A stretch of 64,000 nt of DNA from Falsiruegeria mediterranea M17. GTDB lineage: Bacteria; Pseudomonadota; Alphaproteobacteria; Rhodobacterales; Rhodobacteraceae. The DNA is taken from NCBI RefSeq assembly GCF_900302455.1, contig NZ_ONZG01000005.1, forward strand, positions 248,001-312,000, given 5' to 3'. Below are positions 8,744 through 24,839 of the stretch, in pieces. The position numbers were made by a program, and so were the translations under genes. How positions within the stretch are numbered: the first letter of the stretch is position 1; every line of letters begins with the position of its first letter. The notes under the pieces are model-generated. The model had not been told where the DNA came from. It saw nothing but the letters and a program-made list of their open reading frames with translations, and did not search any database.

Positions 8744-8883
8744 CCGATCCCTCCACGCCTCCCGGCGTGAAATTTCGAACGAATTCGAGAAAACTCGATG
8801 CAAACTGCTAGATTGAACAAAAGTGCGCCTGACGCGCCCCCAAATGCCATGCCTATTGTCACCACTTGTCAGAGGGCGAGACC

Positions 8884-10263
8884 ATGACGGACCACATGAA
8901 CACCCGCCTCACGCGTCGCAGCTTTGTGGCCTCGGCTGCGGCGGCGACGCTGCTGCCTGTAACCGCGCGAGCCTCTGTCCCAACATTGACCGCACGGCCC
9001 GGACAGATCCGCCTGCTGCCCGATGAATACCCCGAAACAGAGGTCTGGGGCTTTGACGGACAGGTGCCCGGCCCGCTGATCCGACTGCGTCAGGGGCAGG
9101 CCTTGACCCGCAAGTTGGTCAACCAACTGCCCACGCCCACATCCATTCACTGGCACGGGTTGCGCCTTCCAAATGCGATGGATGGCGTGCCCGGTATGAC
9201 CCAGGACGCCGTCCAGACCGGCGGGGATTTCACCTATAGTTTCACGCCACCCGATGCGGGCACCTATTGGTATCACTCGCACCATCAATCGACCGAACAA
9301 GTGGCGCGTGGCCTCTATGGTGTGTTGATCGTGGACGAAACCGAACCGCCAGATGTGGATCACGACCTGACGATGGTGCTGGATGACTGGCGGCTGACCC
9401 AGGATGGCAAGACTTCCGAGGACTTCGATCGTCCGCATGACTGGACACACGCCGGGCGGTTGGGGAACTTCATTCATGCCGTGAGCGTGCCTCAAGTGAC
9501 CACTGTCCGCAAAAACGCCCGCCTGCGGCTGCGCCTGATCAATGTGGCCACCGACCGGATCATGGAGATCAGCCTGATCGGGTTAGAGGGCAAGATCGTC
9601 GCCTTCGACGGCATGCCATTGCTGCAACCACAAACGCCCGAGCGGCTGTTCATGGGGCCGGCACAACGGGTCGATCTGGTTGTCGACGTCACAGCTGATG
9701 AGGGCGAAGACGCGCTGATCGCCAGCCATGAACGCGACGGTGTCTTTGCGATTGTCGAGATGCCCGTTTCCGGCTCAAGCACCCGGCGGGGAAACATCCC
9801 CGCCCTGCCCGATAACCCACATCACCGACTGACGACGGTCAAAGATGCGCGCAAGGTCCCGCTCAAGATGGAGGGTGGCGCCATGGGCGGCCTGCGCGAG
9901 GCGACCTTCAAAGGACAACGTCTGAGCATTCAAGAGATGGTGCAACTGGGTCAGGCCTGGGCCTTCAACGGTGTGATTGGTATGCCGGACGAACCGCTGC
10001 TCCGCGCAAGCACAGGTGAAACAGTGATGATCGAGATGGTCAACGACACCGCCTTTGCCCACGCTATGCACCTGCACGGCCAGCACTTCCAAGAGGTCTT
10101 GGAAGATGGCAGCTTTGGCCCCCTGCGCGACACGCTGTTGATGGCGCGGGCTGAGACGCGCACAATCGCGTTCCGCGCCGACGCGCCGGGCAAGTGGTTG
10201 CTACACTGCCATATGCTGTCACATGCTGCCGCAGGCATGCGAACCTGGTTGCATGTGACCTGA
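8884..10263 (+). CDS. Tat-exported multicopper oxidase
   Basis: Periplasmic three-cupredoxin-domain oxidase of 459 residues, related to CueO/SufI/laccase-like enzymes. A twin-arginine signal (LTRRSFVAS) opens the protein. The copper-binding motifs are all present: HWHG at 89-92, HSH at 131-133, HAMHLHGQHF from about 393, and HCHMLSH from about 441 with the axial Met about ten residues on. It should therefore bind a type 1 Cu and a trinuclear centre and be catalytically active, unlike SufI. The ATG at 8884 follows AGAGGG; a TTG at 8866 is possible but less likely. Copper tolerance or metal oxidation is the family's usual role. Confidence 0.93.
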   Translation: MTDHMNTRLTRRSFVASAAAATLLPVTARASVPTLTARPGQIRLLPDEYPETEVWGFDGQVPGPLIRLRQGQALTRKLVNQLPTPTSIHWHGLRLPNAMDGVPGMTQDAVQTGGDFTYSFTPPDAGTYWYHSHHQSTEQVARGLYGVLIVDETEPPDVDHDLTMVLDDWRLTQDGKTSEDFDRPHDWTHAGRLGNFIHAVSVPQVTTVRKNARLRLRLINVATDRIMEISLIGLEGKIVAFDGMPLLQPQTPERLFMGPAQRVDLVVDVTADEGEDALIASHERDGVFAIVEMPVSGSSTRRGNIPALPDNPHHRLTTVKDARKVPLKMEGGAMGGLREATFKGQRLSIQEMVQLGQAWAFNGVIGMPDEPLLRASTGETVMIEMVNDTAFAHAMHLHGQHFQEVLEDGSFGPLRDTLLMARAETRTIAFRADAPGKWLLHCHMLSHAAAGMRTWLHVT

Positions 10264-10266
10264 ATT

Positions 10267-10295
10267 GGGCGCGCAGGGCGATCTGCCTTGCGCCC
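10267..10295. terminator. Imperfect hairpin between convergent genes
   Basis: GGGCGC...AGG pairs with CCTTGCGCCC across a short loop, directly after the oxidase stop and touching the end of the convergent sulfotransferase-like gene. There is no T-run, so this is a weak or rho-assisted terminator at best. Confidence 0.35.
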
Positions 10296-11035
10296 TAATC
10301 CCCCAAACGTTTCGAATAGAGGTGATCGTAGTGCGGCTTCATCCGCCGATGCACCCGCTGTACCCGCTCGGGCGTGTTCTCAAGATTCACGTATTTGCGC
10401 TTTTGTGGCGTCAGCCCTGTCGATTTGGCCAGGTTTGCATGGAATGACCCGCCGTCCCACCAACTGTGCGCCGACGGATCACCACCCGGCTCCCAACTCA
10501 GCGCATCAGGCAGAAACGGAATATCGACCGCCTCGCAGAACGTCCGGGTCATGCGGTGCGGGTCTTCAAGCAGATCGTCGCTGTCGATCACTGGGGGCGC
10601 GATTCCGTTGAGCGCCGTCAGCAGATCAAAGAGCGCCCGCTGTTCCGGGAAACCCACCTCCAGCTCATCGAAATCGGGCCATTTGTTGTACATCGATGTG
10701 ATGGTCTTGGCCGGGTCGCGGATCAGAAAGGCATGGGTGAAATGCGACAGGAACTCGGCATCCCACATATGGTTGATGTAATGCGGAAAGTCCTTGATGA
10801 ATACCGGGCCTTGTTCCGCCCGCGCCCGGATGTCGTTCCAGACGCTTTCCAAGGTCAGACCGGGTGTGGTCTTTTCCCCTGCGGTAAAGCGTGGCCAAAG
10901 CGGGTCTTCGCCCTGATACCATGCCTCGCCAAAGGGTTCGTGCAGGCAATCAAGATCCCCGCGCTGCCGCATCATCCATTCAAACGCGGTCGAGGTCGAC
11001 CGGGGCACCGCCCAAAGGGCAACGATCTTGTGCAT
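10295..11035 (-). CDS. Sulfotransferase-like family protein
   Basis: A 246-residue cytoplasmic protein. The N-terminus, ALWAVPRSTSTAFEWMM (about 6-22), matches the PAPS/5'-phosphosulfate P-loop of sulfotransferases (PRSGTT-like), and HEPF follows at about 32. Later LIRDPAKTI (about 104-112) matches the 3'-phosphate-binding Arg region. Members of this family are often unassigned and some have been misannotated as aminotransferase-like. It starts two bases after the stop of the Asp/Glu-racemase-fold gene, so the two are cotranscribed. The acceptor is unknown. Confidence 0.7.
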   Translation of the reverse strand: MHKIVALWAVPRSTSTAFEWMMRQRGDLDCLHEPFGEAWYQGEDPLWPRFTAGEKTTPGLTLESVWNDIRARAEQGPVFIKDFPHYINHMWDAEFLSHFTHAFLIRDPAKTITSMYNKWPDFDELEVGFPEQRALFDLLTALNGIAPPVIDSDDLLEDPHRMTRTFCEAVDIPFLPDALSWEPGGDPSAHSWWDGGSFHANLAKSTGLTPQKRKYVNLENTPERVQRVHRRMKPHYDHLYSKRLGD

Positions 11036-11037
11036 GA

Positions 11038-11874
11038 TTATCCTTTCAACGACGACAACAGGCGGCCCTGCCGTGTTTCAGGTGCCAGACCCAGTGTTTT
11101 GAACACTCGCCAGTAAAGCGCGATGTCGTGTCCAACGACTGGCTTGCCCAACCGCTCCTCAAGTGCGGCGTCATAATGGACCGGGCGCTGCGCGATCCCG
11201 TCTTCGGCGCGGCGATAGTTGCTCATGCCGTTGATCAGGTAGGCATCAACGTTAGGGGCTTGTTCAGCGGTGTAGTCAAAGGATTTCCAGATCAGATCCT
11301 CATCAAAGCACCAGATACAATCATCAACGTCTTGCTGAGAGGCGAACCACCCCTGATCAAAGAAATTCCCGGCCCAGACAACATCAAACCCCGCCTCACG
11401 CAGGAACCCCACGGTGCCTTGGTACCAGCTGGACGGGTGATAGCAGGCGTTCAGCGCAACCTTTTCCACGTTCAGTTCGCGCAGTGCCTCGACCATGGCG
11501 TAGCCAGCCATGTGAAACGGCGTCTCGTATTTATCCGACAGCATCTCGCAGTGCTGGCGGATGCCTTCCACCCCCAGCCCGCTGGCATGGACCCAGTTCG
11601 ACCCCACCTGCCCGCAAGCGTCCGCGCCATTGTTGGCCATACACTCCATGAACTCTTCGAGCAGGCCAAAGTTCTTTTTTCGCTGATCCAGCCGGTGTTC
11701 ATAATCCGGCACATGCAGCATCCGGCCATGCACGCCGACGCTGCGCGGGGCCATGCGCAAAAAATCTGACGGGGCCGCATCAAAATCATGCGGTGGACAC
11801 GTGAAGCCGACCTGATAAGGAAAGAGTTTCACCTTTGGGTCGCGCCACTTCGGCGGCTTTTGATATTGGCTCAT
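11038..11874 (-). CDS. Asp/Glu racemase-superfamily protein (maleate isomerase / arylmalonate decarboxylase-like)
   Basis: A 278-residue protein with the layout of the maleate isomerase/arylmalonate decarboxylase branch: N-terminal GFTCPPHDFD region, a glycine-rich segment (GQVGSNWVHASG) where the first half-site Cys normally lies, and LINGMSNYR where the second Cys normally lies. Neither position has Cys here. The fold assignment is from overall pattern; the chemistry cannot be the usual two-cysteine racemisation. It is cotranscribed with a sulfotransferase-like gene, and a LysR gene starts divergently 100 bases away. Confidence 0.6.
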   Translation of the reverse strand: MSQYQKPPKWRDPKVKLFPYQVGFTCPPHDFDAAPSDFLRMAPRSVGVHGRMLHVPDYEHRLDQRKKNFGLLEEFMECMANNGADACGQVGSNWVHASGLGVEGIRQHCEMLSDKYETPFHMAGYAMVEALRELNVEKVALNACYHPSSWYQGTVGFLREAGFDVVWAGNFFDQGWFASQQDVDDCIWCFDEDLIWKSFDYTAEQAPNVDAYLINGMSNYRRAEDGIAQRPVHYDAALEERLGKPVVGHDIALYWRVFKTLGLAPETRQGRLLSSLKG

Positions 11875-11975
11875 GGTGTGGACACCGAATTGTTTACGTC
11901 AGATGACCTGATGCTGTCGCAACCTCAGTGGCAAATCCATTGCTTTCGCAGGTCAGGAACCATATCAATTTTGAT

Positions 11976-12875
11976 ATGACTAACCGACGATATGCCCTCC
12001 CCTCGATCTCGGCCCTGATCGCGTTCGAGGCCGTGGCCCGACGCAAGGGTTTTGCGCGCGCGGCAGAAGAGCTCAACACCTCGCAGCCTGCCATAAGCCG
12101 CCACATCCGCAATCTTGAGATCCGCTTTGGCACGCGGTTGTTTCACCGCGACGGCCATGATGTGCGCCTGACCCCTGCAGGTGAAGGGTTCTACGCCTCG
12201 GCCTTGCAGGCGTTGGATGGGTTACAACAGGCGGTGGATACGGTGGCCGAGACCGCGCCCGAGGTCACGCTGGCCAGTTCGCACGCGGTGTCGCACCTGC
12301 TGTTGATGCCCCGCTACCGCGATCTGAGGCGCGCCTTGGGTAAAGGGGTCGAGCTGCGGTTTCTGACCGCGGAATACCATCTGATCGGAGCCGCCATCGA
12401 AACCGGCGCCGATATCGTCTTTGAATACGCCCGCACCGCGCCCAACCGGGACCATGTGCTGATTTGCCGGGAAGAAGTCAAGCCCGTGGGCACGCCCGAG
12501 GTGATCGCGCAGGCGATGGCGGCTTTGAAGAACGAGGCCGCCCCTCCGGGCCTGTTGGAACTGCAGCAAAAGAACCTGGGCTGGACCACCTGGGCCAGAT
12601 GGCAGGCAGCGCATCCAGAAACTGCGGGTTGGACGGAATGCGACGCGCACGACAACTATGTCTATCTGCTGGAAATGGCGGCATCGGGCGCAGGGCTGGC
12701 CCTGGGGTGGCGCGGATTTGTCGGCGGGTACCTGGATCGGGGGGCTCTGGTTGGGTTGCCGGGTGACTGGTTCGCGACAGATGTCGGGATCTATGCCCGG
12801 TTGACCCGAAATGGCGAACGCAACGACAAGGCGCAGGCCTGCCTGGCGGCGCTGAAAACCCTGTCCGACATATGA
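11976..12875 (+). CDS. LysR family transcriptional regulator (GcvA-like)
   Basis: A 299-residue DNA-binding regulator. The winged helix-turn-helix is at about 10-70 (ALIAFEAVARRKGFARAAEE then QPAISRHIRNLE), followed by a periplasmic-binding-type effector domain. I start it at the ATG at 11976 (MTNRRYALPS), typical of this GcvA-like subgroup; a GTG at 11928 would add 16 residues. It is divergent from the racemase-fold/sulfotransferase pair, which it probably controls. It ends convergently with the BCCT operon. Confidence 0.9.
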   Translation: MTNRRYALPSISALIAFEAVARRKGFARAAEELNTSQPAISRHIRNLEIRFGTRLFHRDGHDVRLTPAGEGFYASALQALDGLQQAVDTVAETAPEVTLASSHAVSHLLLMPRYRDLRRALGKGVELRFLTAEYHLIGAAIETGADIVFEYARTAPNRDHVLICREEVKPVGTPEVIAQAMAALKNEAAPPGLLELQQKNLGWTTWARWQAAHPETAGWTECDAHDNYVYLLEMAASGAGLALGWRGFVGGYLDRGALVGLPGDWFATDVGIYARLTRNGERNDKAQACLAALKTLSDI

Positions 12876-12947: not shown

Positions 12948-14768
12948 TTACTCGGCGGGTTCTGCCACGCCTGCTTTATCGCGGTGACTGTCGCGATAGA
13001 GCGCCTTGGCCAAGGCCACACACATCAGACCCATGACCATGGTGAATGGCAACGCGCCGATGATCATCGCATTGCGCAAGGCGTCCATCGGATTGTTCTC
13101 ACCCGCAGCCAGGATCAGCGCACCGATCACGGCGGTCAGGATCAGACCCCAGACGATCTTGTGCTTGTTGCCGACCTCTTGGTCGCCACCCGACATGATG
13201 GTGTTCATCACCAGGATGCCCGAGTCTGCCGAAGTTACCAGGAAGGTCATGATCAGAACCACACACATGATGGTCAGACCGGACAGCAGGCCACCTTCGA
13301 TCATCTGCCCCAGAGTGACGAACAGCTTGGCGGTGTTTGATGCGCCAATGATTGCGCCCTCTGCGCCGCCTGTCAGTTCCAGGTCGATCGCGGTGCCGCC
13401 CAGGATTGTCATCCAGGCAAAGCAGACAAGCGCCGGGGCAAAGACACAGCCCACGATGAACTCGCGCACAGTGCGACCCTTCGAGATACGCGCCAGGAAC
13501 AGACCCACGAAGGGCGAGAAGGCAATCCACCAGGCCCAGTAGAAAGTGGTCCAACCGGCTTGCCAGCCGAACTGACGCGCAGGTTCACCAGCGGCATAAG
13601 CCGCCATCAGGACATCATCCGACAGCGCTGCCGCGTCACCTTCCAGACCCGATTTGAAGCCTGCAAAGGATCCCCAAGCGTTGGTTGCTCCACCGCGCAG
13701 AGTATCGGCAAAGGGTGCTGCTTCGCTCGGCAGACCAGCAGCAAATTCAGCCGCGGATTGCGGTCCAAATGCGCCGAAGCTAAGCGAGATGAAGTGCATC
13801 ATATAATCGACGAATGCCGACGCATATGTCGTCATCGCAAACAGGAACGAACCAAACGCCACGAAGGTAAACAGCAAGATCAACGACAGAACCAGGTTCA
13901 GGTTCGACAGGTATTTCACCCCGCGTCCAACCCCCGACACCGCCGAGATGATCGACAGGCCCATGATTACGATCAGACCAGCAAGCAGACCAACCGTACC
14001 CGGAGCAGGTGCTTCACCCGTCATGTCCATCATCCATTCCATTCCGGTGATCGCATAAACACCGTCGATGAACTGCGACACACCGAAACCGATGGTCACG
14101 GACACACCAAGGATCGTTGCAACAACGCCCAGGACGTCAACGACGTGGCCCAGGAAACCGTTCATCAACTTGCCGAACAAAGGCGTCAGCGCGGTGCGAA
14201 TGGTCAGCGGCATGTTGCGCGTGTAGGCATAGTAAGCCAGCGACAGCCCGGTCACCACGTAGATAGCCCACGCATGGAATCCATAGTGCAGGAACGTGTA
14301 ACGATAGCCGGACTGCAGCGCCGCTTCGGTGTTTGGAGCAACCTCTTGCGAGATCACGACGGGGTTGGAGCCCCACAGACCCAGAGGTTCGGCCGTGGCA
14401 AAGACCATCAGACCAACACCCAGACCGGCGCCAAACATCATCGAAAACCACGAGAAGTTCGAGAATTCGGGCGCTTCGCCCGGTGTTCCCATGATTTTCT
14501 TACCTGTCCCCGGCAGCAACGCCACCACGAACAAGAAGAAGGCAAAAAGACCCACGATCACGATGTAGAAGCCGTTAAAGGTTTCCAACAAACGGCCGTT
14601 CAGGCTGCCAAGAACGCCGTTGGCGTTGGCAGGCCAGACGAGCGCCCAGATCACAAGTGCGACCATGATGGATTTGCTGAGCAAAGCGATTTCAACGCTG
14701 TGCCCCTCATAGAACCCACCCGAAGATCGCTTGATCTCCAGATCGGTGAAGGGTTGCTTGATTGACAT
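12948..14768 (-). CDS. BCCT family transporter (betaine/carnitine/choline type)
   Basis: Inner-membrane secondary carrier, 606 residues, about 12 hydrophobic segments. The BCCT signature is present (WWIAFSPFVGLFLARISKGRT, shown in pieces: WWIAFSPFVG and LARISKGRT), as is the substrate-site region with aromatic residues. The start at 14768 (MSIKQPF) is preceded by GGGAGGAAACAC. It is the last gene of a six-gene catabolic operon and is probably the importer for its substrate, which by family precedent would be a quaternary amine, sulfonium compound, ectoine or similar zwitterion. Confidence 0.95.
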   Translation of the reverse strand: MSIKQPFTDLEIKRSSGGFYEGHSVEIALLSKSIMVALVIWALVWPANANGVLGSLNGRLLETFNGFYIVIVGLFAFFLFVVALLPGTGKKIMGTPGEAPEFSNFSWFSMMFGAGLGVGLMVFATAEPLGLWGSNPVVISQEVAPNTEAALQSGYRYTFLHYGFHAWAIYVVTGLSLAYYAYTRNMPLTIRTALTPLFGKLMNGFLGHVVDVLGVVATILGVSVTIGFGVSQFIDGVYAITGMEWMMDMTGEAPAPGTVGLLAGLIVIMGLSIISAVSGVGRGVKYLSNLNLVLSLILLFTFVAFGSFLFAMTTYASAFVDYMMHFISLSFGAFGPQSAAEFAAGLPSEAAPFADTLRGGATNAWGSFAGFKSGLEGDAAALSDDVLMAAYAAGEPARQFGWQAGWTTFYWAWWIAFSPFVGLFLARISKGRTVREFIVGCVFAPALVCFAWMTILGGTAIDLELTGGAEGAIIGASNTAKLFVTLGQMIEGGLLSGLTIMCVVLIMTFLVTSADSGILVMNTIMSGGDQEVGNKHKIVWGLILTAVIGALILAAGENNPMDALRNAMIIGALPFTMVMGLMCVALAKALYRDSHRDKAGVAEPAE

Positions 14769-14860
14769 GTGTTTCCTCCCTGTTCGCACGTGTCCCTTGG
14801 TTCGGATGGAGAGAGTTATTCTGGCCGCCACGCTCCGAACCGGACGTCGCGACCTTGGGT

Positions 14861-15871
14861 TTAGGTCAGGATGGCTTCGATTTTCTCCAAGGTTGCCACA
14901 TTCACCGCTACACCGTTTGACTGTGCGGCCAGCCGCTTGGACCGGCGGCCATCACCGGGCAAATGTGCGCCGGATTGGTCACGGATCACTTGAACGAGAC
15001 CGGCAATACCGGTGGCAAAAGCGTCACCTGCAGTGGCCTTTGGGTCGATTGCAATGAACATTTGGCCGGTTTTTGGTGGTCCGCCCGCAGTTCCCGAGAA
15101 GGGCGAAGCATGCACGCCAAGTGTTGCGCCGGTCAGTGCCGCGGCCATAACTTCGGTAAGAATCGCCACACCGACGCCCTTGTATCCACCCGACGGCGCC
15201 ATCGACCCCTTGAGGCCCACGTTCGGGTCTGTTGTGGGATTGCCATCGGCATCAAGCGCCCAGCCAACCGGGATCGCCTTGCCTTCGCGGGCGTGTTTCA
15301 TGACCTCGCTTTTGGCGATGGTGCTGGCGCTTTGGTCGATGAGCAGCGCGGGCTGACCGTCGGTGCCCGGCACCGCGATGGAAAACGGGTTGGTGCCCAC
15401 GACCGGCTTGGCCCCGCCAGACGGCGCGATAGATGCCGGCGCATTGGTGAACCCAAGCCCGACCAGCCCCTCCTGCGCCAGACGCCAGGTGTGATAGCCC
15501 AGAACCCCGCAGTTATAGCTGTTGCGAATTGCCAGCACAGCGATACCCTGCGCACGCGCGGCTGGGATCAAGGCGTCGAAACCGGCGTCAATCGCGGCAT
15601 GGGCAAACCCCGTGGCCGCATCCACGTTTACCACACCCGGCGTCGGCTTTTCGACAGTCGGGATCGCAGCACCATCCACCTTGCCGCATTGCACATGCTC
15701 GCAATAGATCGGGATATAGGCCAAGCCATGGCTGGCGACGCCGTCGGCCTCGGTCGCGGCCGTAGCGACCGCGAGCGGTCTTGCGTTGGCCTCGGACGTG
15801 CCCGCAGCCACTAGGGCGCGGAACGACAGATCTTCGATTTCTGCGAGTGTGAGCGTGCGGGTCTCGATCAT
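14861..15871 (-). CDS. Ldh family NAD(P)-dependent oxidoreductase
   Basis: A 336-residue member of the malate/L-lactate/sulfolactate/ureidoglycolate dehydrogenase superfamily, which also contains Pyr2C/Pip2C imine reductases. Family marks include the N-terminal helix and SHGLAYIPIY (catalytic His region), IRNSYNCGVLGYH, GTNPFSIAVP and GGYKGVGVAIL. It starts at the ATG at 15871. The frame is open further upstream, but that stretch lies within the DUF3726 gene. It is gene 5 of the operon. The substrate could be a 2-hydroxyacid or a cyclic imine. Confidence 0.92.
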   Translation of the reverse strand: MIETRTLTLAEIEDLSFRALVAAGTSEANARPLAVATAATEADGVASHGLAYIPIYCEHVQCGKVDGAAIPTVEKPTPGVVNVDAATGFAHAAIDAGFDALIPAARAQGIAVLAIRNSYNCGVLGYHTWRLAQEGLVGLGFTNAPASIAPSGGAKPVVGTNPFSIAVPGTDGQPALLIDQSASTIAKSEVMKHAREGKAIPVGWALDADGNPTTDPNVGLKGSMAPSGGYKGVGVAILTEVMAAALTGATLGVHASPFSGTAGGPPKTGQMFIAIDPKATAGDAFATGIAGLVQVIRDQSGAHLPGDGRRSKRLAAQSNGVAVNVATLEKIEAILT

Positions 15872-15885
15872 GGTGTGGCCTTTTA

Positions 15886-16506
15886 TCAGTCGTTGTCGGA
15901 AAGCCCGGCACCGGCACCCAACAGACGGGATTCCTCGGTGGCGGGGGCATAGGTCTTGTGCGCCAAACGGTTCAGGGCGTTCCAATCCGCAGGGCGTGGT
16001 GTTGCGCGGGTTTTGCGCACAGAAGACACGGGCAGGTCGCCCCCAAGCGTGACGGTCACTGTCTGGGCCATTGCAGGCCAATCCGCCGTCGCCGACACGA
16101 TGTGGCCATCCGTGCAGACGGTCATGCCATCACAGTCCAGCGTCACCGGTGTCTTCAACTGTCGCGCTGCCAGAGCAGCAAAGGGCAACAGAAGCACAGG
16201 AGAAGCGACACGCTCTATGACCATTGGATGCGAGGTCAGCAAATGCGCGCTGTCCGAGAGCAGGCACCCGGTGCGCAGCGGGCACAAGTCCCCCTCGCCC
16301 GCCAACACCCCGTCAAGGGATTTTGGTGCGTGCAAACTGCAATCAGACTGTTCCAGCAAGTCAGCCAGATGCCCGACCCCGTCCACATCATGGGCGCACA
16401 GCCAGCGGGTTGCCTTGGCCGCGTCTTCGGCCAACCCCCAGGAAAAACCCGCGCCGCGTGTGGCGCGTTTGGCGGTCGCTTCGACCTCGTTCAAGGAATA
16501 GCTCAC
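15886..16506 (-). CDS. DUF3726 family protein, function unknown
   Basis: A 206-residue, probably cytoplasmic protein beginning VSYSLNEVEATAKRATRGAG and ending just before the Ldh gene. I recognise it as the DUF3726 type found in alphaproteobacteria; no catalytic motif is evident. The start is the GTG at 16504-16506, which overlaps the TGA of the preceding gene (GTGA), strongly suggesting translational coupling and a functional link. A regulatory or accessory subunit of the 561-residue neighbour is possible. Confidence 0.75.
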   Translation of the reverse strand: MSYSLNEVEATAKRATRGAGFSWGLAEDAAKATRWLCAHDVDGVGHLADLLEQSDCSLHAPKSLDGVLAGEGDLCPLRTGCLLSDSAHLLTSHPMVIERVASPVLLLPFAALAARQLKTPVTLDCDGMTVCTDGHIVSATADWPAMAQTVTVTLGGDLPVSSVRKTRATPRPADWNALNRLAHKTYAPATEESRLLGAGAGLSDND

Positions 16507-18188
16507 ACCGCGCCCTCCTGCGGATAGACCCAATGGTCCGCCGTTTCGGTCGTCAGGTCCTCGGGGTATGGCGCGCCCGCGTACATGCAGATCCGCACCC
16601 AGCGGTCGGAACGCGGATCGAAATGCGTGGCCCCAAAGAACGAAAGCTTTGCCCGCAGCATGTCGATGGGCAGCACCTGTGCGCTGATCGTGTTGTCGCG
16701 GATCTCGCCATAGGGCGCCACCCGGCTCATTTGGGCGCGTCGGACGGTGTGGCGGTGTTCGGGATGCTCCAGCAGAAAGGCCGCGACAGTTCCCTGACGA
16801 CCGTTCAGTGCCCGATGGGCCAAAACCGCATCCCGTGCCGGTGCAAGGGGCTGTTCATAGTCGGCAATGGGTTCGTCAAATCGCTCTCCCATGCGCGGCT
16901 CCAGCTTCTCTTCGGACACGTACCAGGCCCGCGCGCAGTTCTCGGGCGCGTCCCAGTCCAGATCCAATGCCCAGCCAAAGCTCTCTTGGATCAGGTCACG
17001 CACCTCGGTCACGTCCATCGACCCTTCGATGGAAAAAGCCGCACCGTTGCTGTCGGCCATGCACGATGTCAAACCGTCCACAAGGTCGGGGTAAGGTTCC
17101 AGGATCAGCGAAGCGACGAGTTCTTGCCCCTCTTCACTCAGGGCCCCCTCAGCCCAAGTCATCAAACGGTCCCAAGGATAATCAGTGATCAAATCGTCTG
17201 CGCCGACAAGAGAGGTGAGCGCCAACAAATCGGTTTTCAGCGCTGCCAGTTTCTCGATCTGGATTGGATGCTCTGAGCGCCAGCGGTCGACCGAAACTTC
17301 GCTCCGACGCAGCATTCTGCGAAACACCTGCGCCTCGCTTTCGGTCGCCTCGCTCACCGACCGCACACGTGCAATGGCCTCTTCGCGCACCATGATCCAG
17401 TTGTTGAACAGGATGGGATGGTTGACGATGAAGGGCGCCATGCCCAATCCCGTCGAATTGCCGATCCCCAATCGCCGTGCGATGGCCAAATCCAGAGGAA
17501 CCGCCGCATCGCCCCCCTTGGCACGGGCCATATGCTGCACCAGATCCCGCACAAACGTGCGTGTCAGAAACACGGATAGCATCTCGGCCTGAAAAGGGGC
17601 CTGAACTTCGGCACGACCCGCGATCTTTTCCCGGTCCGCAGCGCCAAATTTGCCCGAGCCGTAAACGGCCGTGGTGCGCATCAGATAGCCCACCTTGTCG
17701 ATCTGGTCAAAATCCGGTTGCTGCCCTGCCGCCAGACGATCCACCACATGCGCCCACAGGCGCACCGAGCGATTGGCGCGTGACAACGACAGCTCGCTCT
17801 CGCTGACCCGTCCTGCCTCTTGCAGCGGCACGTTTTGTGACAGCCGTTCAATATCCGCCTCAGTCGGAACCCCGTCAAACAGTGCAAATGTGGCATCCCA
17901 GGCCTCGGCAATCACCCGGTCCGAGCGCATCTCGGGCGGCAGGTCATGGGCAAAAGCCACCAGCGAATAGGTCCGCTCTGGCCCCTTGGCCGAATAGACC
18001 GCGCAGCCCACCCCGTTTTCATCAATCCGAAACACCGGACGCGAAAAGCTCCAGTTTTCCTGCGCCATGCGGCGGGTCAGCTGCCGCATGAAGCTCAGGC
18101 GGCATTGATGCAGCGACCCCAACCGCGACAGGCGCATCACTGTCGCTGGGTCTCGCCGGGGGATGGTGGTCTGCGCAGGTGCTTCCAT
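16503..18188 (-). CDS. Conserved uncharacterised protein, 561 residues
   Basis: A large soluble protein with no signal peptide and no motif I can assign. It begins with a basic stretch rich in Arg (RLSRLGSLHQCRLSFMRQL) and contains YGSGKFGAADREKI near the middle and STGLGMAPFIVNHP about 70 residues on. An AAGGA ribosome site lies at the end of the upstream dipeptidase gene, and the 3' end overlaps the DUF3726 gene by four bases. The conserved pairing with DUF3726, a dipeptidase-like gene and a dehydrogenase suggests an enzyme of the same pathway, unidentified. Confidence 0.7.
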   Translation of the reverse strand: MEAPAQTTIPRRDPATVMRLSRLGSLHQCRLSFMRQLTRRMAQENWSFSRPVFRIDENGVGCAVYSAKGPERTYSLVAFAHDLPPEMRSDRVIAEAWDATFALFDGVPTEADIERLSQNVPLQEAGRVSESELSLSRANRSVRLWAHVVDRLAAGQQPDFDQIDKVGYLMRTTAVYGSGKFGAADREKIAGRAEVQAPFQAEMLSVFLTRTFVRDLVQHMARAKGGDAAVPLDLAIARRLGIGNSTGLGMAPFIVNHPILFNNWIMVREEAIARVRSVSEATESEAQVFRRMLRRSEVSVDRWRSEHPIQIEKLAALKTDLLALTSLVGADDLITDYPWDRLMTWAEGALSEEGQELVASLILEPYPDLVDGLTSCMADSNGAAFSIEGSMDVTEVRDLIQESFGWALDLDWDAPENCARAWYVSEEKLEPRMGERFDEPIADYEQPLAPARDAVLAHRALNGRQGTVAAFLLEHPEHRHTVRRAQMSRVAPYGEIRDNTISAQVLPIDMLRAKLSFFGATHFDPRSDRWVRICMYAGAPYPEDLTTETADHWVYPQEGAV

Positions 18189-18193
18189 GACCG

Positions 18194-19177
18194 TTATCCT
18201 TTTGGGGTGAAGTTTTCAGCGAAGAACCGATACCAGTTCCCGCCCATGATCCCGTCAATTTCGTCCGCGCTCAGACCGGTCGCACTCAGCCCCTGACGGA
18301 TGTTGCCAAAGTGGCGGTTGTCTTCAAACCAGCTGGGCATCGGAGGGAAGCCAGGATTGCTGGCAGATCCCTCGCCATAGTCTATTTCCTTGGTCCACCG
18401 CCCCACGCGCATCCATTCGACGATGCTGTCGGGCTGATCCTGACACAGGTCAGTGCCGATGCCCAAATGTTCTGCCCCATACTTTTCAGCCGTTCGCGCG
18501 ATCATTTCGCAAAAGCTGTCCAGCGTGCAGTCGGATTTGTCTTTCAGGTGATGAGGGTAGACCGAAAACCCAAGCATCCCACCATTTTCCGTCACCGCGC
18601 GAATAACGCTCTCGCGCTTGTTGCGCAGCGCGGGCTGCCATTCATGAGGGTTGGCGTGGGTGATGGCGATGGGACGTTCCGAGATTTCGGCCGCCTCAAT
18701 GGTCGAACGATCCGCCGAGTGGCTCATGTCCACCACCAGGCCCACGCGGTTCATTTCCTTGATAACCTGCTTGCCCATGCGGGTGATGCCCGCGTCCTCA
18801 TCCTCGTAACATCCCGTCGCGAGCAATGACTGGTTGTTATAAGTGAGCTGCATGAACCGCGCACCAAGGGTGTGCAGGATTTCAACAAGGCCGATGTCAT
18901 CTTCGATTGGGCTGGGGTTCTGAAAGCCAAAGAACACTGCCGTACGCCCGGTTTCCCGCGCGACGTCGATATCGCTGGCCCATTGACCCTTCATGATCAG
19001 ATCGGGGTACTGCTCGAACCAGCGGTTCCACTTTTCAAAATTCAGAACCGTTTCGCGAAAGTTCTCATGGTACGAAATGGTGACGTGGATTGCGTCAACG
19101 CCACCCTCACGCAGTTGGCGAAAGACCTTTTCCGACCAGTTCACATATTGCAGCCCGTCGATCAGGTACCCGGACAT
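18194..19177 (-). CDS. Membrane dipeptidase-family (peptidase M19-like) protein, metal site incomplete
   Basis: A 327-residue TIM-barrel metallohydrolase-like protein. It has the two barrel His motifs of renal dipeptidase (VDMSHSA with His153 and ITHANP with His174). The N-terminal His-x-Asp pair is replaced (IDGLQY), and the glutamate motif reads FGFQNPSPIED rather than EGG. It lacks a signal peptide. The start at 19177 (MSGYLID) follows AAGGGAGAACGAC. It lies between the aldehyde dehydrogenase and the 561-residue gene. It is unlikely to be a standard dipeptidase; a related hydrolase with a one-metal or altered site is more plausible. Confidence 0.85.
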   Translation of the reverse strand: MSGYLIDGLQYVNWSEKVFRQLREGGVDAIHVTISYHENFRETVLNFEKWNRWFEQYPDLIMKGQWASDIDVARETGRTAVFFGFQNPSPIEDDIGLVEILHTLGARFMQLTYNNQSLLATGCYEDEDAGITRMGKQVIKEMNRVGLVVDMSHSADRSTIEAAEISERPIAITHANPHEWQPALRNKRESVIRAVTENGGMLGFSVYPHHLKDKSDCTLDSFCEMIARTAEKYGAEHLGIGTDLCQDQPDSIVEWMRVGRWTKEIDYGEGSASNPGFPPMPSWFEDNRHFGNIRQGLSATGLSADEIDGIMGGNWYRFFAENFTPKG

Positions 19178-19252
19178 GTCGTTCTCCCTTGGATCACTCA
19201 CGATCTGAGCTGCGCCCAACGTCTTAAGCCGGGCGCATGCCTTGCAATTTGC

Positions 19253-20695
19253 TTACACCGGGCCTGCGCTGATGTAGGCGGTTTTGACAGTGGTATAGAA
19301 CTCGGCCGCCGCCTTGCCCTGCTCGCGCGGGCCATAGGAGCTGTCACCGCGCCCACCGAAAGGCACGTGATAGTCGGTCCCTGCGGTTGGCAGGTTCACG
19401 GTCACGACGCCCGTGCGCGCATTGCGTCGGAAATGGGTAGCGCGGGCCAGTGACTTGGTCACGATCCCCGAGGTCAGGCCAAAGTTGGTGTCGTTCACGA
19501 CACTCAGCGCCTCGTCATAGCTGCCCACCTTGATCACGGACGTCAGAGGGGCAAACATCTCTTCGCGGTTGATGCGCATGTCGTTGGTGGTGTTCAGAAA
19601 CACGCCGGGCGACATGTAGAACCCCTGATGCGGCATGTCCAAACGCGCGCCACCGCAGGCCAGCTCGGCCCCTTCGGTTTTGCCCAGATCAACGTAAGCC
19701 AGGTTCTCCTGCAGCTGCTGTTCACTGACCACAGGCCCCATCTGAACGCCATCTTCCAGGGCATGGCCAACTTTCATCGCCTGTGCACCAGCCACCAGCT
19801 TTTCCACGAAAGCGTCGTGGATGCCGGCATGAACCACCAGACGCGACGAGGCCGTGCATTTCTGACCAGTGCCGCCGAACGCGCCACCCAGGGCAAGCGA
19901 TACAGCTAGATCCAAATCGGCGTCGTCCATCACTGCCAGCGCGTTCTTTGAGCCCATCTCCATCTGTACCTTGGTCAGGTTCTGGATCGCGGCGGCGGCA
20001 ATGCCCTTGCCGACAGGGACCGACCCCGTGAAGGAGATCGCGTTGACCTTGGGGCTTTCGACCAGACGCTGACCGATAGAGCGACCCGATCCCATGACCA
20101 GCGAGAACAGACCCTTGGGAATGTCCTGACGTTCAATGATCTCGGTCAGGGCAACAGCCGAGGCTGGTGTGATGTTGGCCGGCTTCCAGACAACCGCGTT
20201 GCCATAGCAGAGCGCCGGCGCGATTTTCCATGAGGCGGTCGCCGTGGGGAAGTTCCACGGGCTGATGATCGCGACAACGCCAACGGCTTCGCGGCGCACG
20301 TCTACTTCGATGTCGGGGCGCACTGAATCCGCGTTTTCGCCGATCTGACGCAGGCATTCGGCCGCGTAGTAGGTAAAGAACTGACCAGCGCGATAAACCT
20401 CGCCCTTGCCTTCGGCCAGCGGTTTGCCCTCTTCCCGGCTGAGCAGCGTGCCAAGTTCTTCGGCCCGCGCCATCATTTCGTTGCCGATGGCGTTCAATAC
20501 AGCCTGCTTGCGCTCCAACCCGTATGCGGCCCATTCGGCCTGGGCGATGCGTGCCTGATCGAGCGTCGCATCGAGCTGATCGGCACTGGCTTGAGTGAAC
20601 ATGCCAACCAGATCGCTCAGATCCGAAGGGTTGCGGTTTTCGATTTCGCTTTCGCCCGCCAGCCATTCGCCAGCGATCAGGTTCAGTTTGGTCAC
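19253..20695 (-). CDS. Aldehyde dehydrogenase family protein (semialdehyde-type)
   Basis: NAD(P)-dependent dehydrogenase of 480 residues. Catalytic Cys280 lies in GGTGQKCTASSR and general base Glu246 in VQMEMGSKN; the cofactor-binding FTGSVPVGKG (222-231) is also present. The pattern resembles alpha-ketoglutarate semialdehyde dehydrogenases more than betaine aldehyde dehydrogenases, by eye only. I use the GTG at 20695, which gives the usual N-terminus; no ATG fits. It is the first gene of the operon and is divergent from a LysR gene, 103 bases apart. Confidence 0.93.
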   Translation of the reverse strand: MTKLNLIAGEWLAGESEIENRNPSDLSDLVGMFTQASADQLDATLDQARIAQAEWAAYGLERKQAVLNAIGNEMMARAEELGTLLSREEGKPLAEGKGEVYRAGQFFTYYAAECLRQIGENADSVRPDIEVDVRREAVGVVAIISPWNFPTATASWKIAPALCYGNAVVWKPANITPASAVALTEIIERQDIPKGLFSLVMGSGRSIGQRLVESPKVNAISFTGSVPVGKGIAAAAIQNLTKVQMEMGSKNALAVMDDADLDLAVSLALGGAFGGTGQKCTASSRLVVHAGIHDAFVEKLVAGAQAMKVGHALEDGVQMGPVVSEQQLQENLAYVDLGKTEGAELACGGARLDMPHQGFYMSPGVFLNTTNDMRINREEMFAPLTSVIKVGSYDEALSVVNDTNFGLTSGIVTKSLARATHFRRNARTGVVTVNLPTAGTDYHVPFGGRGDSSYGPREQGKAAAEFYTTVKTAYISAGPV

Positions 20696-20780
20696 GGTAC
20701 GCCCCAGACAACAGATTTCAGTTTGGAACAGGATGGACTTTGACGACCACATCAGTCAAATTCAATTAACTCAAACTTAT

Positions 20781-20798: not shown

Positions 20799-21707
20799 AT
20801 GTCGATCAAACTGGAAACTCTACGCACCTTTTGCACCGTGGCCCAAACCGGCAACCTGGCCGAGGCTGCCGACCGCCTTGGCCGCACGCAATCGGCAGTT
20901 TCAATGACCCTCAAGCAGTTCGAAGAGCATCTGGGGCGCAAACTGTTTCAGGGCGAGCGCAAGGCACAGTTGTCAGCCCTTGGGGAAGAGGTCTTTGAAC
21001 AAGCCCTGAAACAGGTGCGCGCCTACGACGAAACCATCCAAGGTATCGAAGGCGCGGCACAGTCGCGCCACGGGCAGATCCGCATCGCTTCGGTCCCCTC
21101 GGTGGCGGCGGTGGTGTTTCCGGCCGTAACAGATCATATGACGAAACGCTTCCCCGGCGTGAAGATCGAGCTGCGCGATACCCATACGTCACAGGTGTTG
21201 GACGCCCTTCTGAGCGGGCGCGCAGACATTGGCATTGCCTCTGGTCACCATCCGTTGAACGGGATCGAAGCCGTTCCGCTTTTTCGTGACCCCTTTGGGT
21301 TGATCGCCTCCGCAGATCATCCACTGGCGCGGGCCCCGCAGCATCCAACATTGGCCGAAGTGGTCACCCGAAAGTTCGTCAAGAACGCACTGTGTGATCT
21401 GATCCAAACGCCCGATTTTCTGAGTGCGGTTGGCATATCCGATGTGACGATCCAGAACACCCTGTCGTTGGTCGCAATGGTACAGACCAAAGACTGGGTG
21501 ACGATCCTGCCGCAAACCGTGACCCGTTTTCTGCCCCAATCCGTCATTTTTCGCCCCATTAGGGACCTGCCGGATCAGCGTGAAGTATTTTTGTATGTCC
21601 GAACCCGCTCACCTTACGCGTCCATCACGCGGGACTGCGCCGAGTTTATCCAGTCGCGGGATTGGAGTTGTACACTCCCGCAGTCAGGTCCTGATGCGGT
21701 TTCATGA
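20799..21707 (+). CDS. LysR family transcriptional regulator
   Basis: A 302-residue regulator with the N-terminal winged helix (LETLRTFCTVAQTGNLAEAA, then TQSAVSMTLKQFEEHLGRKL) and a C-terminal effector-binding domain. The start is the ATG at 20799 (MSIKLE); longer frames run into the dehydrogenase gene on the other strand. It is divergent from the six-gene operon at 12.9-20.7 kb and very likely its regulator. Whether it activates or represses cannot be read from the sequence. Confidence 0.93.
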   Translation: MSIKLETLRTFCTVAQTGNLAEAADRLGRTQSAVSMTLKQFEEHLGRKLFQGERKAQLSALGEEVFEQALKQVRAYDETIQGIEGAAQSRHGQIRIASVPSVAAVVFPAVTDHMTKRFPGVKIELRDTHTSQVLDALLSGRADIGIASGHHPLNGIEAVPLFRDPFGLIASADHPLARAPQHPTLAEVVTRKFVKNALCDLIQTPDFLSAVGISDVTIQNTLSLVAMVQTKDWVTILPQTVTRFLPQSVIFRPIRDLPDQREVFLYVRTRSPYASITRDCAEFIQSRDWSCTLPQSGPDAVS

Positions 21708-21993: not shown

Positions 21994-23280
21994 TCATCCG
22001 CCGAACCCAGCGACTTTGGGAAGCCACGTGGACAAGGCTGGGAAGGCAAAGACGATTATCAGTCCCAGAAACATCAGCGCCGCATAGGGCAATGAGCCGC
22101 GAATGACGTCCCACAACGGAGCCTTGGCAATGCCTTTGATGACGAAGAGGTTCATTCCCACAGGGGGTGTGATCAGTGCCAACTCGAGGTTGATCATCAA
22201 CAGTATACCATACCAGATCGGATCGATGCCAAGCGCCACCATGACCGGAAAGACAATTGGTGTCGTGATCAGAATGATCGAAATTGTCTCGAGAAACATG
22301 CCCAACACCAGGATCAAACACATCACCGCGACAACAAACATTGCCGGGTTCAGACCGATGGCCGTGACCTGTTCCATAATTTCAATGGGAAGACGGATGA
22401 TCGTCACGGCGTGGCCAAATAGCGCCGCTGCTGCCAGTATCATGAACAGCATGGCCGTTGTACGCACCGTCTCGAACGCAGTGAGCCAAAGGTCATGCAG
22501 ACCGAAGTTACGGTAAATCACGACGCTGATGATCAGCGCATAAAGGCACCCGATGGCTGCGGCTTCGGTCGCGGTAAAAATACCCAAATAAATGCCGCCC
22601 AAAACAACCGGTGGCATCAACAGGGCCCAGATCGATTGCTTCATACGTGCCCAGATAAGACCCATGCCCGCAAAGGGCTGAGCGACGACCGCACCACCGA
22701 ACCCGGCGCTGATCATTGCCCAGGCAGCAAAGATCGCAGCCATCATGATACCTGGGATCAGCCCGGCCAGAAACAGCGCCCCGATCGAAGCCTCGGTCAC
22801 GATCGCGTAGAGGATCAGCGGCCCCGATGGCGGGATCAAAATGCCCAGTGTGCCGCCCGCAGCGATCACGCCGTAGGAATAGCTAGGTCGGTAATTAAAG
22901 CGCTTCATCTGCGGGATGGCCGTCGAACCGATGGTCAGCGCGGTGGCAACAGAAGAGCCAGAGATGGCCGCAAAGATGGTACAGGAAAGGATCGTGGCGA
23001 CCCCGAGCCCCCCGCGCAAATGGCCGACCAACGCGTTGGCCGCATCATAAAGGTCTTTTACAACACCCGCGCGGATCATCACATGAGCCATGAAGGCAAA
23101 CATCGGGATGGCCGTCAGAAGGCCATTGTTGAGCTTGGCAAAGACTGTGTCGGCGGCGCTGTTCACATTGCCTTCGGTCAGCAGCATGATGATCAGCGAA
23201 GTCAGACCGAGACCGGCAAAAATGGGCATGCCCGTCAAAAGAAGAACAATCAAACCGGACAAAATCAAAAAAGTCGTCAT
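21994..23280 (-). CDS. TRAP transporter large permease (DctM)
   Basis: A 428-residue integral membrane protein with about 12 hydrophobic segments; signatures include AAISGSSVATALTIGSTAIPQM and ILIPPSGPLILYAI. The start ATG at 23280 overlaps the DctQ stop (ATGA). It is the last gene of the CoA-transferase/lyase/TRAP operon. The 286 bases that follow, up to the convergent LysR gene, show no convincing terminator or gene. Confidence 0.95.
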   Translation of the reverse strand: MTTFLILSGLIVLLLTGMPIFAGLGLTSLIIMLLTEGNVNSAADTVFAKLNNGLLTAIPMFAFMAHVMIRAGVVKDLYDAANALVGHLRGGLGVATILSCTIFAAISGSSVATALTIGSTAIPQMKRFNYRPSYSYGVIAAGGTLGILIPPSGPLILYAIVTEASIGALFLAGLIPGIMMAAIFAAWAMISAGFGGAVVAQPFAGMGLIWARMKQSIWALLMPPVVLGGIYLGIFTATEAAAIGCLYALIISVVIYRNFGLHDLWLTAFETVRTTAMLFMILAAAALFGHAVTIIRLPIEIMEQVTAIGLNPAMFVVAVMCLILVLGMFLETISIILITTPIVFPVMVALGIDPIWYGILLMINLELALITPPVGMNLFVIKGIAKAPLWDVIRGSLPYAALMFLGLIIVFAFPALSTWLPKVAGFGG

Positions 23281-23807
23281 GGGCGGCGTACCGTCAAAAG
23301 AGTGAAGATGCGGGCCATTGCCGCCAAAATAAGGATACCCATGCCAATCAACAGGAACCCTTGCGGGATCCACATTTGAACACCCAGATATCCGTCCGAA
23401 TAGACACCAAAATCGTAGGAAAATTGAACCATGAGAACGGCGCTGTAGAGGATGGCGGACGCCACAAGGATCACTCCGATCATCCCCCATAGTTCAACCA
23501 ACCACTGCATGCGCGGTCCCGCGCGTTCGGTAAGCAAATCAACGCCAAAGTGCTCGCCACGTAAAAGCACTTCGCCAGCGCCCAGAGCAACCATCGCCAC
23601 AACGATGAAGCCATTGAGCTCGTCCGAGAATGTGACCGGAGTTCCGAGCACATACCGCATGAATACACTGTAACTGACCACCCCGAAGACGATGAGCACC
23701 AACAGTGCGGCTACGCCCGCGCCGGACAGCGTGACAAGGCGTATTGCCCGTTCTACCCCTGAGACCGCAAGGGTCCCAGAAGCAGTGGTTTCAGGATCGA
23801 GCTTCAC
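23277..23807 (-). CDS. TRAP transporter small permease (DctQ)
   Basis: A 176-residue four-helix membrane protein. Family features include the FMRYVLGTPVTFSDELNGF region after helix 1/2 and the paired C-terminal helices. I use a GTG start two bases past the stop of the binding-protein gene (coupled translation); an ATG at 23885 would overlap that gene by 77 bases and add a non-hydrophobic tail, so it is less likely. It forms the inner-membrane complex with DctM. Confidence 0.88.
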   Translation of the reverse strand: MKLDPETTASGTLAVSGVERAIRLVTLSGAGVAALLVLIVFGVVSYSVFMRYVLGTPVTFSDELNGFIVVAMVALGAGEVLLRGEHFGVDLLTERAGPRMQWLVELWGMIGVILVASAILYSAVLMVQFSYDFGVYSDGYLGVQMWIPQGFLLIGMGILILAAMARIFTLLTVRRP

Positions 23808-23808
23808 G

Positions 23809-24807
23809 TCAGTTTGAGATCTGGTTGACCAGCTCGAGCAGTTTAACGCCGTCCTCGCCAGTCGCGCTGCCAAAGGATGCGTCAAACGCAGGTGCCATCA
23901 ACTCTTTCCAGGCAGCTTCTTCTTCAGGCGTTTGGAAATGGACTTTCATACCCATCTCCTCAAGTTGCGAAGGCGCGGCGGATGAGGCCTCTTCCGATGC
24001 GTCTACAGCCCAAACCGCTGCTTTTGCACCCGCGTCCGCAATGACGGCTTTTTGGGCGTCAGTAAGCCCGTTGTACCAGGCTGGGTTCAAGTAGCCATGA
24101 AAGAACACGCTAAAGAGCGGCACAACGGTAACATGGTCCTGAACTTCAAAGTATTTCCGCGAATACGCGGCGGCGATGTCGGTCATTCCGGCATCGATCA
24201 CACCAGTTGATAGCGCTTCATATACCTTAGAGCCTGACATCGCCGAGGGCGCTGCCCCCATCGCAACCAGCCCGGCGTCAGCGACCGGGTTCAGCCCCCT
24301 GATCTTCACGCCTTCAAAGTCGGCAGGGTTGATCAACGGTGCCCCTTTTGACGTCATTGCGGTCATCCGAGTGGTGAAGAGCCACACAGCGTTTTGCACG
24401 CCTTTTTCAAGCAGCTTCTCTTCCAAGAATGAGGCCGCTTCGCTACCTGGCCAGGCGGCAAGCGTTTCCAGATCGGTGACCGCATAAGGTTTCAGCGTCA
24501 CGTTCATGACTGGCAGAGTTTTACCCCACTGCGGATTGATCGAAAACGCACATTCGATATTGCCTTTTGCCACCGACACGATGTTCTCACGCGCACCGAC
24601 AAGACTGTTGGCACCAAAGACCTGAACATCGATCTCGCCATTCGACTGGGTTTCGATTTCGGCGGCCCACTGGTCAATCACTTTCGCAATATGGTGCGAT
24701 GGCGGCAGCTGGTGGCTGCAGCGCATTTCGGTTGCTTCGGCGAACACTGCGGTGCCCAAGCTTGATGCAGCCAATAGCGAGGCCGCCACTGTTTTCTGGA
24801 TGTTCAT
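23809..24807 (-). CDS. TRAP transporter solute-binding protein (DctP)
   Basis: Periplasmic binding protein, 332 residues, with a Sec signal (MNIQKTVAASLLAASS, cleavage after VFA). The DctP fold is indicated by the conserved GVKIRGLNPVADAG strand, where the carboxylate-clamping Arg sits, and the EALSTGVIDAG motif. The ATG at 24807 is preceded by GTGGAGGAAAAC. It lies directly after the lyase gene, so it probably binds the acid that the upstream CoA-transferase activates. Confidence 0.94.
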   Translation of the reverse strand: MNIQKTVAASLLAASSLGTAVFAEATEMRCSHQLPPSHHIAKVIDQWAAEIETQSNGEIDVQVFGANSLVGARENIVSVAKGNIECAFSINPQWGKTLPVMNVTLKPYAVTDLETLAAWPGSEAASFLEEKLLEKGVQNAVWLFTTRMTAMTSKGAPLINPADFEGVKIRGLNPVADAGLVAMGAAPSAMSGSKVYEALSTGVIDAGMTDIAAAYSRKYFEVQDHVTVVPLFSVFFHGYLNPAWYNGLTDAQKAVIADAGAKAAVWAVDASEEASSAAPSQLEEMGMKVHFQTPEEEAAWKELMAPAFDASFGSATGEDGVKLLELVNQISN

Positions 24808-24839
24808 GTTTTCCTCCACTTTGTCATTTTAGTTTAGTG

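Follow-up and report, generated by a model that had tools for sequence, protein, structure and literature searches.

The 64,000-nucleotide stretch of Falsiruegeria mediterranea M17 analysed here (hereafter the window) carries six genes on its minus strand, in the order aldehyde dehydrogenase, M19-like amidohydrolase, P561 (a 561-residue protein), DUF3726 protein, Ldh_2 dehydrogenase and BCCT carrier, with a LysR regulator gene divergent from them (Table 1). It is suggested here, with good confidence, that they form a catabolic operon for homarine (N-methylpicolinate), which is very probably identical to the hom operon already published. The coordinates and Pfam matches confirmed the layout put forward in the original prediction for this DNA, namely the six-gene same-strand order, the divergent LysR and the GTGA motif through which the GTG start of the DUF3726 gene overlaps the P561 stop by 4 bases. 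The intergenic gaps calculated from the coordinates measure, from aldehyde dehydrogenase to BCCT, 75, 5, -4, 14 and about 92 bases, so that a single transcript is likely; promoter and terminator scans gave counts no higher than those of shuffles (2 against 2.4 and 7 against 7.8, respectively). The starts of the M19-like and BCCT genes were taken as the first likely Met, and the aldehyde dehydrogenase gene has an alternative in-frame ATG upstream, at 20752.

Table 1. Genes of the putative homarine operon and its divergent regulator, with positions in the window.
Feature	Position	Strand	Basis and remarks
Aldehyde dehydrogenase	19253..20695	-	GTG start; Pfam Aldedh
M19-like amidohydrolase without N-terminal H-x-D motif	18194..19177	-	Pfam Peptidase_M19
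P561, 561 residues, outside known families	16503..18188	-	AlphaFold2, Foldseek, conservation analysis
DUF3726 protein, 206 residues, GTG start	15886..16506	-	Pfam DUF3726
Ldh_2 dehydrogenase	14861..15871	-	Pfam Ldh_2; closest solved structure 1wtj
BCCT zwitterion carrier	about 12948..14768	-	Pfam BCCT; likely start is the Met of MSIKQPF
LysR regulator, divergent from operon	20799..21707	+	Pfam LysR

The co-occurrence of P561 and DUF3726, a search for which had been proposed in the original prediction, proved to be strongly above chance: P561 was detected in 164/292 Rhodobacterales genomes, DUF3726 in 141/292 and both together in 140/292 (Fisher p about 2e-56, a value that ignores kinship). The single genome with DUF3726 only (G272) was still negative in a profile search for P561. 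Among 80 loci from named genomes, which are much alike in gene order, a DUF3726 match lies directly after P561 in 79, and a 4-base overlap of the two genes is possible in 75 of these 79, the script having preferred an overlapping start codon wherever one existed. On this adjacency and the genome co-occurrence, chance clustering was rejected, and the view that P561 and DUF3726 are a near-inseparable pair is supported. The nearest P561 from a named genome is that of Tropicibacter sp. Alg240-R139 (90% identity, in a comparison that may omit the records closest to the window). In-frame stops were seen in the P561 copies of four genomes in the genome search (G150, where locus L063 is split into two open reading frames (ORFs), G029, G119 and G140). 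Gene order was also followed in a sample of 60 loci, comprising 57 from chosen genera together with those of the window, Phaeobacter inhibens and Ruegeria sp. TM1040 (hereafter the order sample), in which the M19-like gene was counted at 55 loci, DUF3726 at 57, a close aldehyde dehydrogenase at 42, BCCT at 21 and a LysR-like gene near the operon at 40. All of these counts are lower bounds, as the ORF caller overlooks some genes, one such case being Ldh_2 at L050, and Ldh_2 and RidA were recounted by tblastn.

Beyond these loci, P561 was present in 53/385 genomes of a class sample. In four genomes of 1.2-1.4 Mb (L214-L217; guanine-plus-cytosine content of the locus 0.28-0.36), read as SAR11-like or HIMB59-like on size and base composition, the M19-like, P561 and DUF3726 genes are adjacent in 4/4 cases, and in L214 and L215 an aldehyde dehydrogenase and an Ldh_2 are also nearby; three ORFs between the latter two genes in L214 look like an ABC transporter. 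P561 also occurs in a 2,753,527-bp genome (L218), a probable SAR116 genome that we take to be Puniceispirillum, and Pararhizobium has the full gene set with a glycine-betaine-type ABC transporter.

More distant relatives of P561 show other surroundings. In the 24 Rhodobacterales genomes with P561 only, the E-values of the P561 matches lie between about 1e-132 and 1e-158, which is the range of clade B, a second P561 clade from the same order with about 48% identity and changing neighbours. A DUF3726-like ORF follows P561 in 8/8 clade B loci (L092-L099), and the Pfam DUF3726 model gives 23 and 32 bits for two of these partner ORFs, compared with 77 bits for the window protein. A P561 copy of the first clade and one of clade B can share one genome (G002: L065 and L092). 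In Sinorhizobium meliloti and Bosea, P561 (27% and 32% identity, respectively) is accompanied by an M19-like gene, an ABC transporter and a partner gene, with no Ldh_2 and no close aldehyde dehydrogenase at either locus; the S. meliloti locus also holds an aminotransferase, a stretch distantly alike to aldehyde dehydrogenases (29-32% identity) and, further downstream, RidA. These clade B and rhizobial contexts would suit a general module in which P561, DUF3726 and M19 open N-heterocycles or cleave hindered amides, the clades (the window's, the 48% Rhodobacterales one and the 30% rhizobial one) acting on different substrates, so that naming the window's substrate from its relatives would be unsafe. 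The window copy, however, sits in a large clade where the Ldh_2/aldehyde dehydrogenase set is common, and we regard this explanation as quite improbable.

P561 itself gave no match above cut-off in Pfam, NCBIfam or PDB sequence searches, in agreement with the earlier view that it lacks a known motif. Single-protein structure prediction, which had also been proposed, gave an AlphaFold2 model with a predicted local distance difference test score (pLDDT) of 88.1 and a predicted template modelling score (pTM) of 0.91, for which Foldseek found no PDB match at E<=0.001. Across 79 aligned rows, 53 positions are at least 97% conserved, including 13 Arg, one His (H257) and no Cys, and the next-best conserved His is H219 (91%); the single conserved His and the lack of a conserved Cys argue against Rieske, Fe-S or two-His iron chemistry. 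P561 and DUF3726 appear unrelated to each other by hhalign.

The PDB sequence search returned nothing credible for DUF3726. Its AlphaFold2 model (pLDDT 90.9) resembles Ldh_2 enzymes, which account for all of the top 27 PDB matches in Foldseek (probability 0.94-1.00 for ranks 1-22), with a best E of 0.0015, none <=0.001, template modelling (TM) scores of 0.37-0.51 of the query and partial overlap. Compared with the operon's own Ldh_2 by hhalign, only the first 47-48 residues align (probability 71-85%). The DUF3726 protein has 206 residues against about 335 for Ldh_2 and no Pfam Ldh_2 match; a weak, sub-threshold match (E 0.025) is seen in its S. meliloti counterpart and none in that of Bosea. 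From the Foldseek matches, the N-terminal alignment and the weak S. meliloti match, DUF3726 is probably related to the Ldh_2 enzymes in a shortened form. At its C-terminus a conserved tail (SR..GAGAGLxDND, window about 15886-15970), modelled with low confidence (pLDDT about 56-71), could be an arm docking on P561. The open-licence literature searched contains no mention of DUF3726.

The M19-like protein matches Pfam Peptidase_M19 (E 3e-70), and had been described as a degenerate dipeptidase. This description holds insofar as the N-terminal metal motif is lost, H-x-D being replaced by L-Q-Y in at least 90% of 32 aligned rows. The two-metal site of membrane dipeptidases, built from an N-terminal H-x-D, a bridging Glu and later His residues, is incomplete in the 32 rows, where H-x-D and the bridging Glu are gone and both later His are kept. 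Q86, which aligns with a Glu of the dipeptidase GliJ, is invariant in these rows, as are H153, H174 and D243. The orthologues are 58-88% identical to the window's protein in 29/31 rows (34 and 40% in two rhizobial rows) and share the motif replacement; decay was therefore rejected, and the alignment indicates that the protein is a conserved subfamily rather than a decayed dipeptidase. The same data bear on the idea that M19-like and DUF3726 are inactive relics beside a working P561, dehydrogenase and reductase. Such a state would accommodate the lost M19 metal motif and a DUF3726 that falls short of Ldh_2 in length and has less conserved alignment columns than P561 (43% against 71% identity on average), but is most improbable given the conservation of the M19 orthologues and the retention of DUF3726 in nearly every order-sample and named locus.

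The remaining enzymes have recognisable relatives. Among NCBIfam models, those for alpha-ketoglutaric semialdehyde dehydrogenase and 2,5-dioxovalerate dehydrogenase score highest with the aldehyde dehydrogenase, neither reaching its cut-off. The nearest solved structures to the operon's Ldh_2 are of delta1-piperideine-2-carboxylate reductase (PDB 1wtj, 2cwf and 2cwh; E 3e-58, the next type being at 2e-39). The DpkA of Pseudomonas putida is described as an imine reductase for alpha-imino acids, N-methyl ones included, and as an N-methyl-amino-acid dehydrogenase (PMC6110843). The original prediction had left the choice between hydroxyacid oxidation and imine reduction; sequence likeness points to imine reduction, and ordinary hydroxyacid oxidation was rejected on the nearest structure, an imine reductase, and on the linkage to N-methylglutamate dehydrogenase (Mgd). 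The BCCT carrier scores 386 bits against the glycine betaine model NF047988, below its curated cut-off of 650 bits. Many copies of the operon are accompanied by betaine-type transporters, either BCCT or glycine-betaine/choline-type ABC (NCBIfam scores below cut-offs), in keeping with the proposed import of a zwitterion.

The operon appears to come with two alternative endings. Ldh_2 only was found at 29 of the order-sample loci, RidA only at 11, both at 0 and neither at 20 (p 0.0003); the tblastn recount gave 29, 12, 0 and 18 of 59 loci, respectively (p 0.0001), and the 80 named loci, some of whose genomes are in common with the order sample, gave 44, 8, 0 and 28 by tblastn (p 0.001). The locus of Ruegeria sp. 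TM1040 is of the Ldh_2 type and that of Phaeobacter inhibens DSM 17395 of the RidA type. RidA lies either directly after DUF3726, in place of Ldh_2, or upstream next to the regulator. On a quick P561 tree the Ldh_2 and RidA states require 7 changes if rows with neither gene are disregarded, and the two have therefore been swapped several times. An imine is a likely pathway intermediate, because Ldh_2 and RidA both handle imines or enamines.

A link to Mgd is seen at a subset of loci. MgdABCD belongs to the methylamine pathway of Ruegeria pomeroyi, has an AraC-type regulator gene adjacent and has been reported to participate in the catabolism of homarine (PMC13390433). SoxA-like/Mgd-type genes lie within 6 kb of P561 at 6/29 Ldh_2 loci as against 0/30 loci without Ldh_2 in the order sample, and at 6/44 as against 0/36 in the named genomes, such that they adjoin the operon at 12/139 loci when these two sets, which overlap in part, are combined, and Ldh_2 is present at all 12. 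A tree of 18 SoxA-like proteins covered the six operon-adjacent copies of the order sample and not those of the named set; the six group in a supported, though not exclusive, clade (99/97) with a copy that adjoins genes resembling mgsABC-gmaS of the window's genome (the mgs names are our reading; gmaS is above the TIGR03105 cut-off). A SoxA-like protein of two Mgd-side clades, taken at >=50% identity, is encoded in 30/30 genomes of the Ldh_2 type and 7/11 of the RidA type (p 0.003, uncorrected, with a cut-off set post hoc). The 54% clade, the second of the two, may be Mgd, as it provides the best candidate in genomes that have gmaS and lack a narrow-clade copy, such as that of the window. The window's own genome apparently has a methylamine cluster, with a gmaS above its cut-off and mgsABC-like and GcvT-like genes, on the same contig about 60 kb past the window end (L041). 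In five genomes (L271, L272, L275, L277 and L278) a second sarcosine-oxidase-like clade occurs between a glutamate-dehydrogenase-like gene and dnaG/rpoD, and is possibly a housekeeping Mgd; the genes of L272 were scanned and those of the other four were assigned by clustering.

Together, these data suggest the following route. BCCT would import the zwitterion, and P561 with DUF3726 would carry out a two-electron oxidation in which the pyridinium ring is opened between C5 and C6 to give an N-formyl-N-methyl amino-aldehyde. The aldehyde dehydrogenase would then oxidise the C5 aldehyde, the M19-like amidohydrolase would take off the N-formyl group as formate (with loss of ring carbon 6), and Ldh_2 would reduce the resulting N-methyl imine or enamine to N-methylglutamate, from which Mgd, encoded elsewhere, would release a one-carbon unit to leave glutamate. 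RidA stands in for Ldh_2 in some relatives, where it would hydrolyse the imine to 2-oxoglutarate and methylamine. A hand atom count gives homarine + 4 H2O -> N-methylglutamate + formate + 2 H; as the oxidation by the aldehyde dehydrogenase (-2 e) is offset by the reduction by Ldh_2 (+2 e), a single net two-electron oxidation falls to P561/DUF3726. We infer the substrate and every reaction of this scheme, the gene order, conservation, Mgd linkage, Ldh_2/RidA exclusion and predicted folds being observed. More tentatively, and with rather less than even confidence, P561/DUF3726 may be a new two-component N-methylpyridinium ring opener without flavin-monooxygenase, Rieske or two-His iron motifs, in which DUF3726 is a recruited shortened Ldh_2 and which, with the metal-poor M19-like protein, forms a reusable module (at least three clades) with two endings, Ldh_2 towards N-methylglutamate or RidA towards 2-oxoglutarate and methylamine.

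The choice of homarine draws on the published pathway. The hom operon of the 2026 homarine catabolism study (Ferrer-Gonzalez et al.) is said to be homABCDER, five enzymes and a regulator, to range over Rhodobacterales, SAR11 and SAR116, and to have an N-methylglutamate intermediate. The window-type operon ranges over Rhodobacterales, the streamlined 1.2-1.4 Mb genomes and the 2,753,527-bp genome. Degradation of another N-methylated or quaternary zwitterion (of the N-methylproline/stachydrine type, trigonelline or an unidentified betaine) through an N-methyl imine and N-methylglutamate would be served equally by the transporters, which suit any betaine, and by the Mgd linkage, which suits any N-methylglutamate route, and semialdehyde enzymes belonging to five-carbon pathways give the aldehyde dehydrogenase its best scores. 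The operon genes of the window, however, include no Rieske-type demethylase or flavin monooxygenase by Pfam, the known enzymes for trigonelline and proline betaine belong to other families, and the distribution fits the reported hom range, which makes another zwitterion unlikely. Several observations nonetheless weigh against the homarine operon as drawn here. In the SAR11-like L216 and L217 the M19-like/P561/DUF3726 trio has neither an aldehyde dehydrogenase nor an Ldh_2 match next to it, and the 20/60 order-sample loci with neither Ldh_2 nor RidA include all of clade B. The tree-based test of exclusivity gave a median p of 0.5, with too few independent pairs and a lack of power. The class sample shows the opposite trend for Mgd-like genes near the operon (0/9 Ldh_2 loci, 2/14 without Ldh_2). 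The narrow Mgd clade (>=60% identity) gave no separation of RidA-type from Ldh_2-type genomes (5/11 against 17/30, p 0.73), and gmaS did not support the predicted RidA-type excess (5/11 against 10/30, p 0.49). No narrow-clade Mgd is encoded in the window's genome, where the nearest copy is a 54% relative close to a glutamate-dehydrogenase-like gene.

The original prediction was partly upheld overall: a catabolic operon for a marine zwitterion is supported, whereas the decayed dipeptidase and the hydroxyacid option are not, and neither is the statement that no described pathway has this gene set, since the 2026 paper on homarine (cited in PMC13390433) exists and the genomic evidence points to it. 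The openly licensed passages on homarine consulted contain no description of this gene set. At the operon level there is little claim to novelty, as the pathway has probably been published. New in this analysis are the Ldh_2 likeness of the DUF3726 model, a P561 model without a solved relative and with one conserved His and no conserved Cys, the M19-like protein as a conserved subfamily, and Ldh_2/RidA as alternative endings. A published report describes homarine as an osmolyte at high concentration in marine phytoplankton that is taken up fast by a marine bacterium, and Ruegeria pomeroyi as drawing it down (PMC12817926). If the homarine assignment is true, P561/DUF3726 would be a marker for homarine turnover, one DUF family and one hypothetical protein would gain an annotation, a pyridinium-opening enzyme without a known fold would be open to direct test of its mechanism, and the choice of Ldh_2 or RidA would set the fate of the methylamine nitrogen, kept on glutamate or released.

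Around the operon, a complete TRAP transporter (DctM, DctQ and DctP) lies on the minus strand just past LysR (window 21994-24819). The opposite flank (window 8866-12875) has a multicopper oxidase, a sulfotransferase-like gene, a second LysR and a gene slightly below the arylmalonate-decarboxylase cut-off.

Several known systems resemble parts of this operon. The trigonelline (tgn) route, in which oxidative ring opening leaves an N-methylformamide and an aldehyde dehydrogenase follows, acts on an N-methylpyridinium carboxylate, as homarine is, and provides a chemical analogy for the proposed mechanism; its two-component flavin monooxygenase, however, has no counterpart by Pfam among the window's operon genes. 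The delta1-piperideine-2-carboxylate reductases differ from the operon's Ldh_2 in gene context, and the substrate of the latter is inferred. The nearest solved relative of the M19-like protein is PDB 2i5g, annotated as an amidohydrolase (E 4e-54), which like the window's protein starts with IDGL instead of H-x-D and has GFQ, but has different partner genes. 2i5g, of Pseudomonas aeruginosa origin, may be the product of the dipeptidase gene next to dgcAB. A predicted dipeptidase adjoining dgcAB in P. aeruginosa and Vibrio is mentioned in a published account (PMC12093977). MgdABCD of R. pomeroyi (SPO1585-1588) is the proposed next enzyme, and Mgd-type genes stand beside some operons, some with an AraC-type gene nearby, whereas no Mgd lies inside the window and the nearest copy in the genome is the 54% relative. 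Finally, the hom operon, as reported, matches the window operon in gene number (five enzymes and a regulator, for which the divergent LysR is the candidate) and host range, the two features compared. An Mgd link is common to homarine catabolism (PMC13390433) and to some window-type operons.

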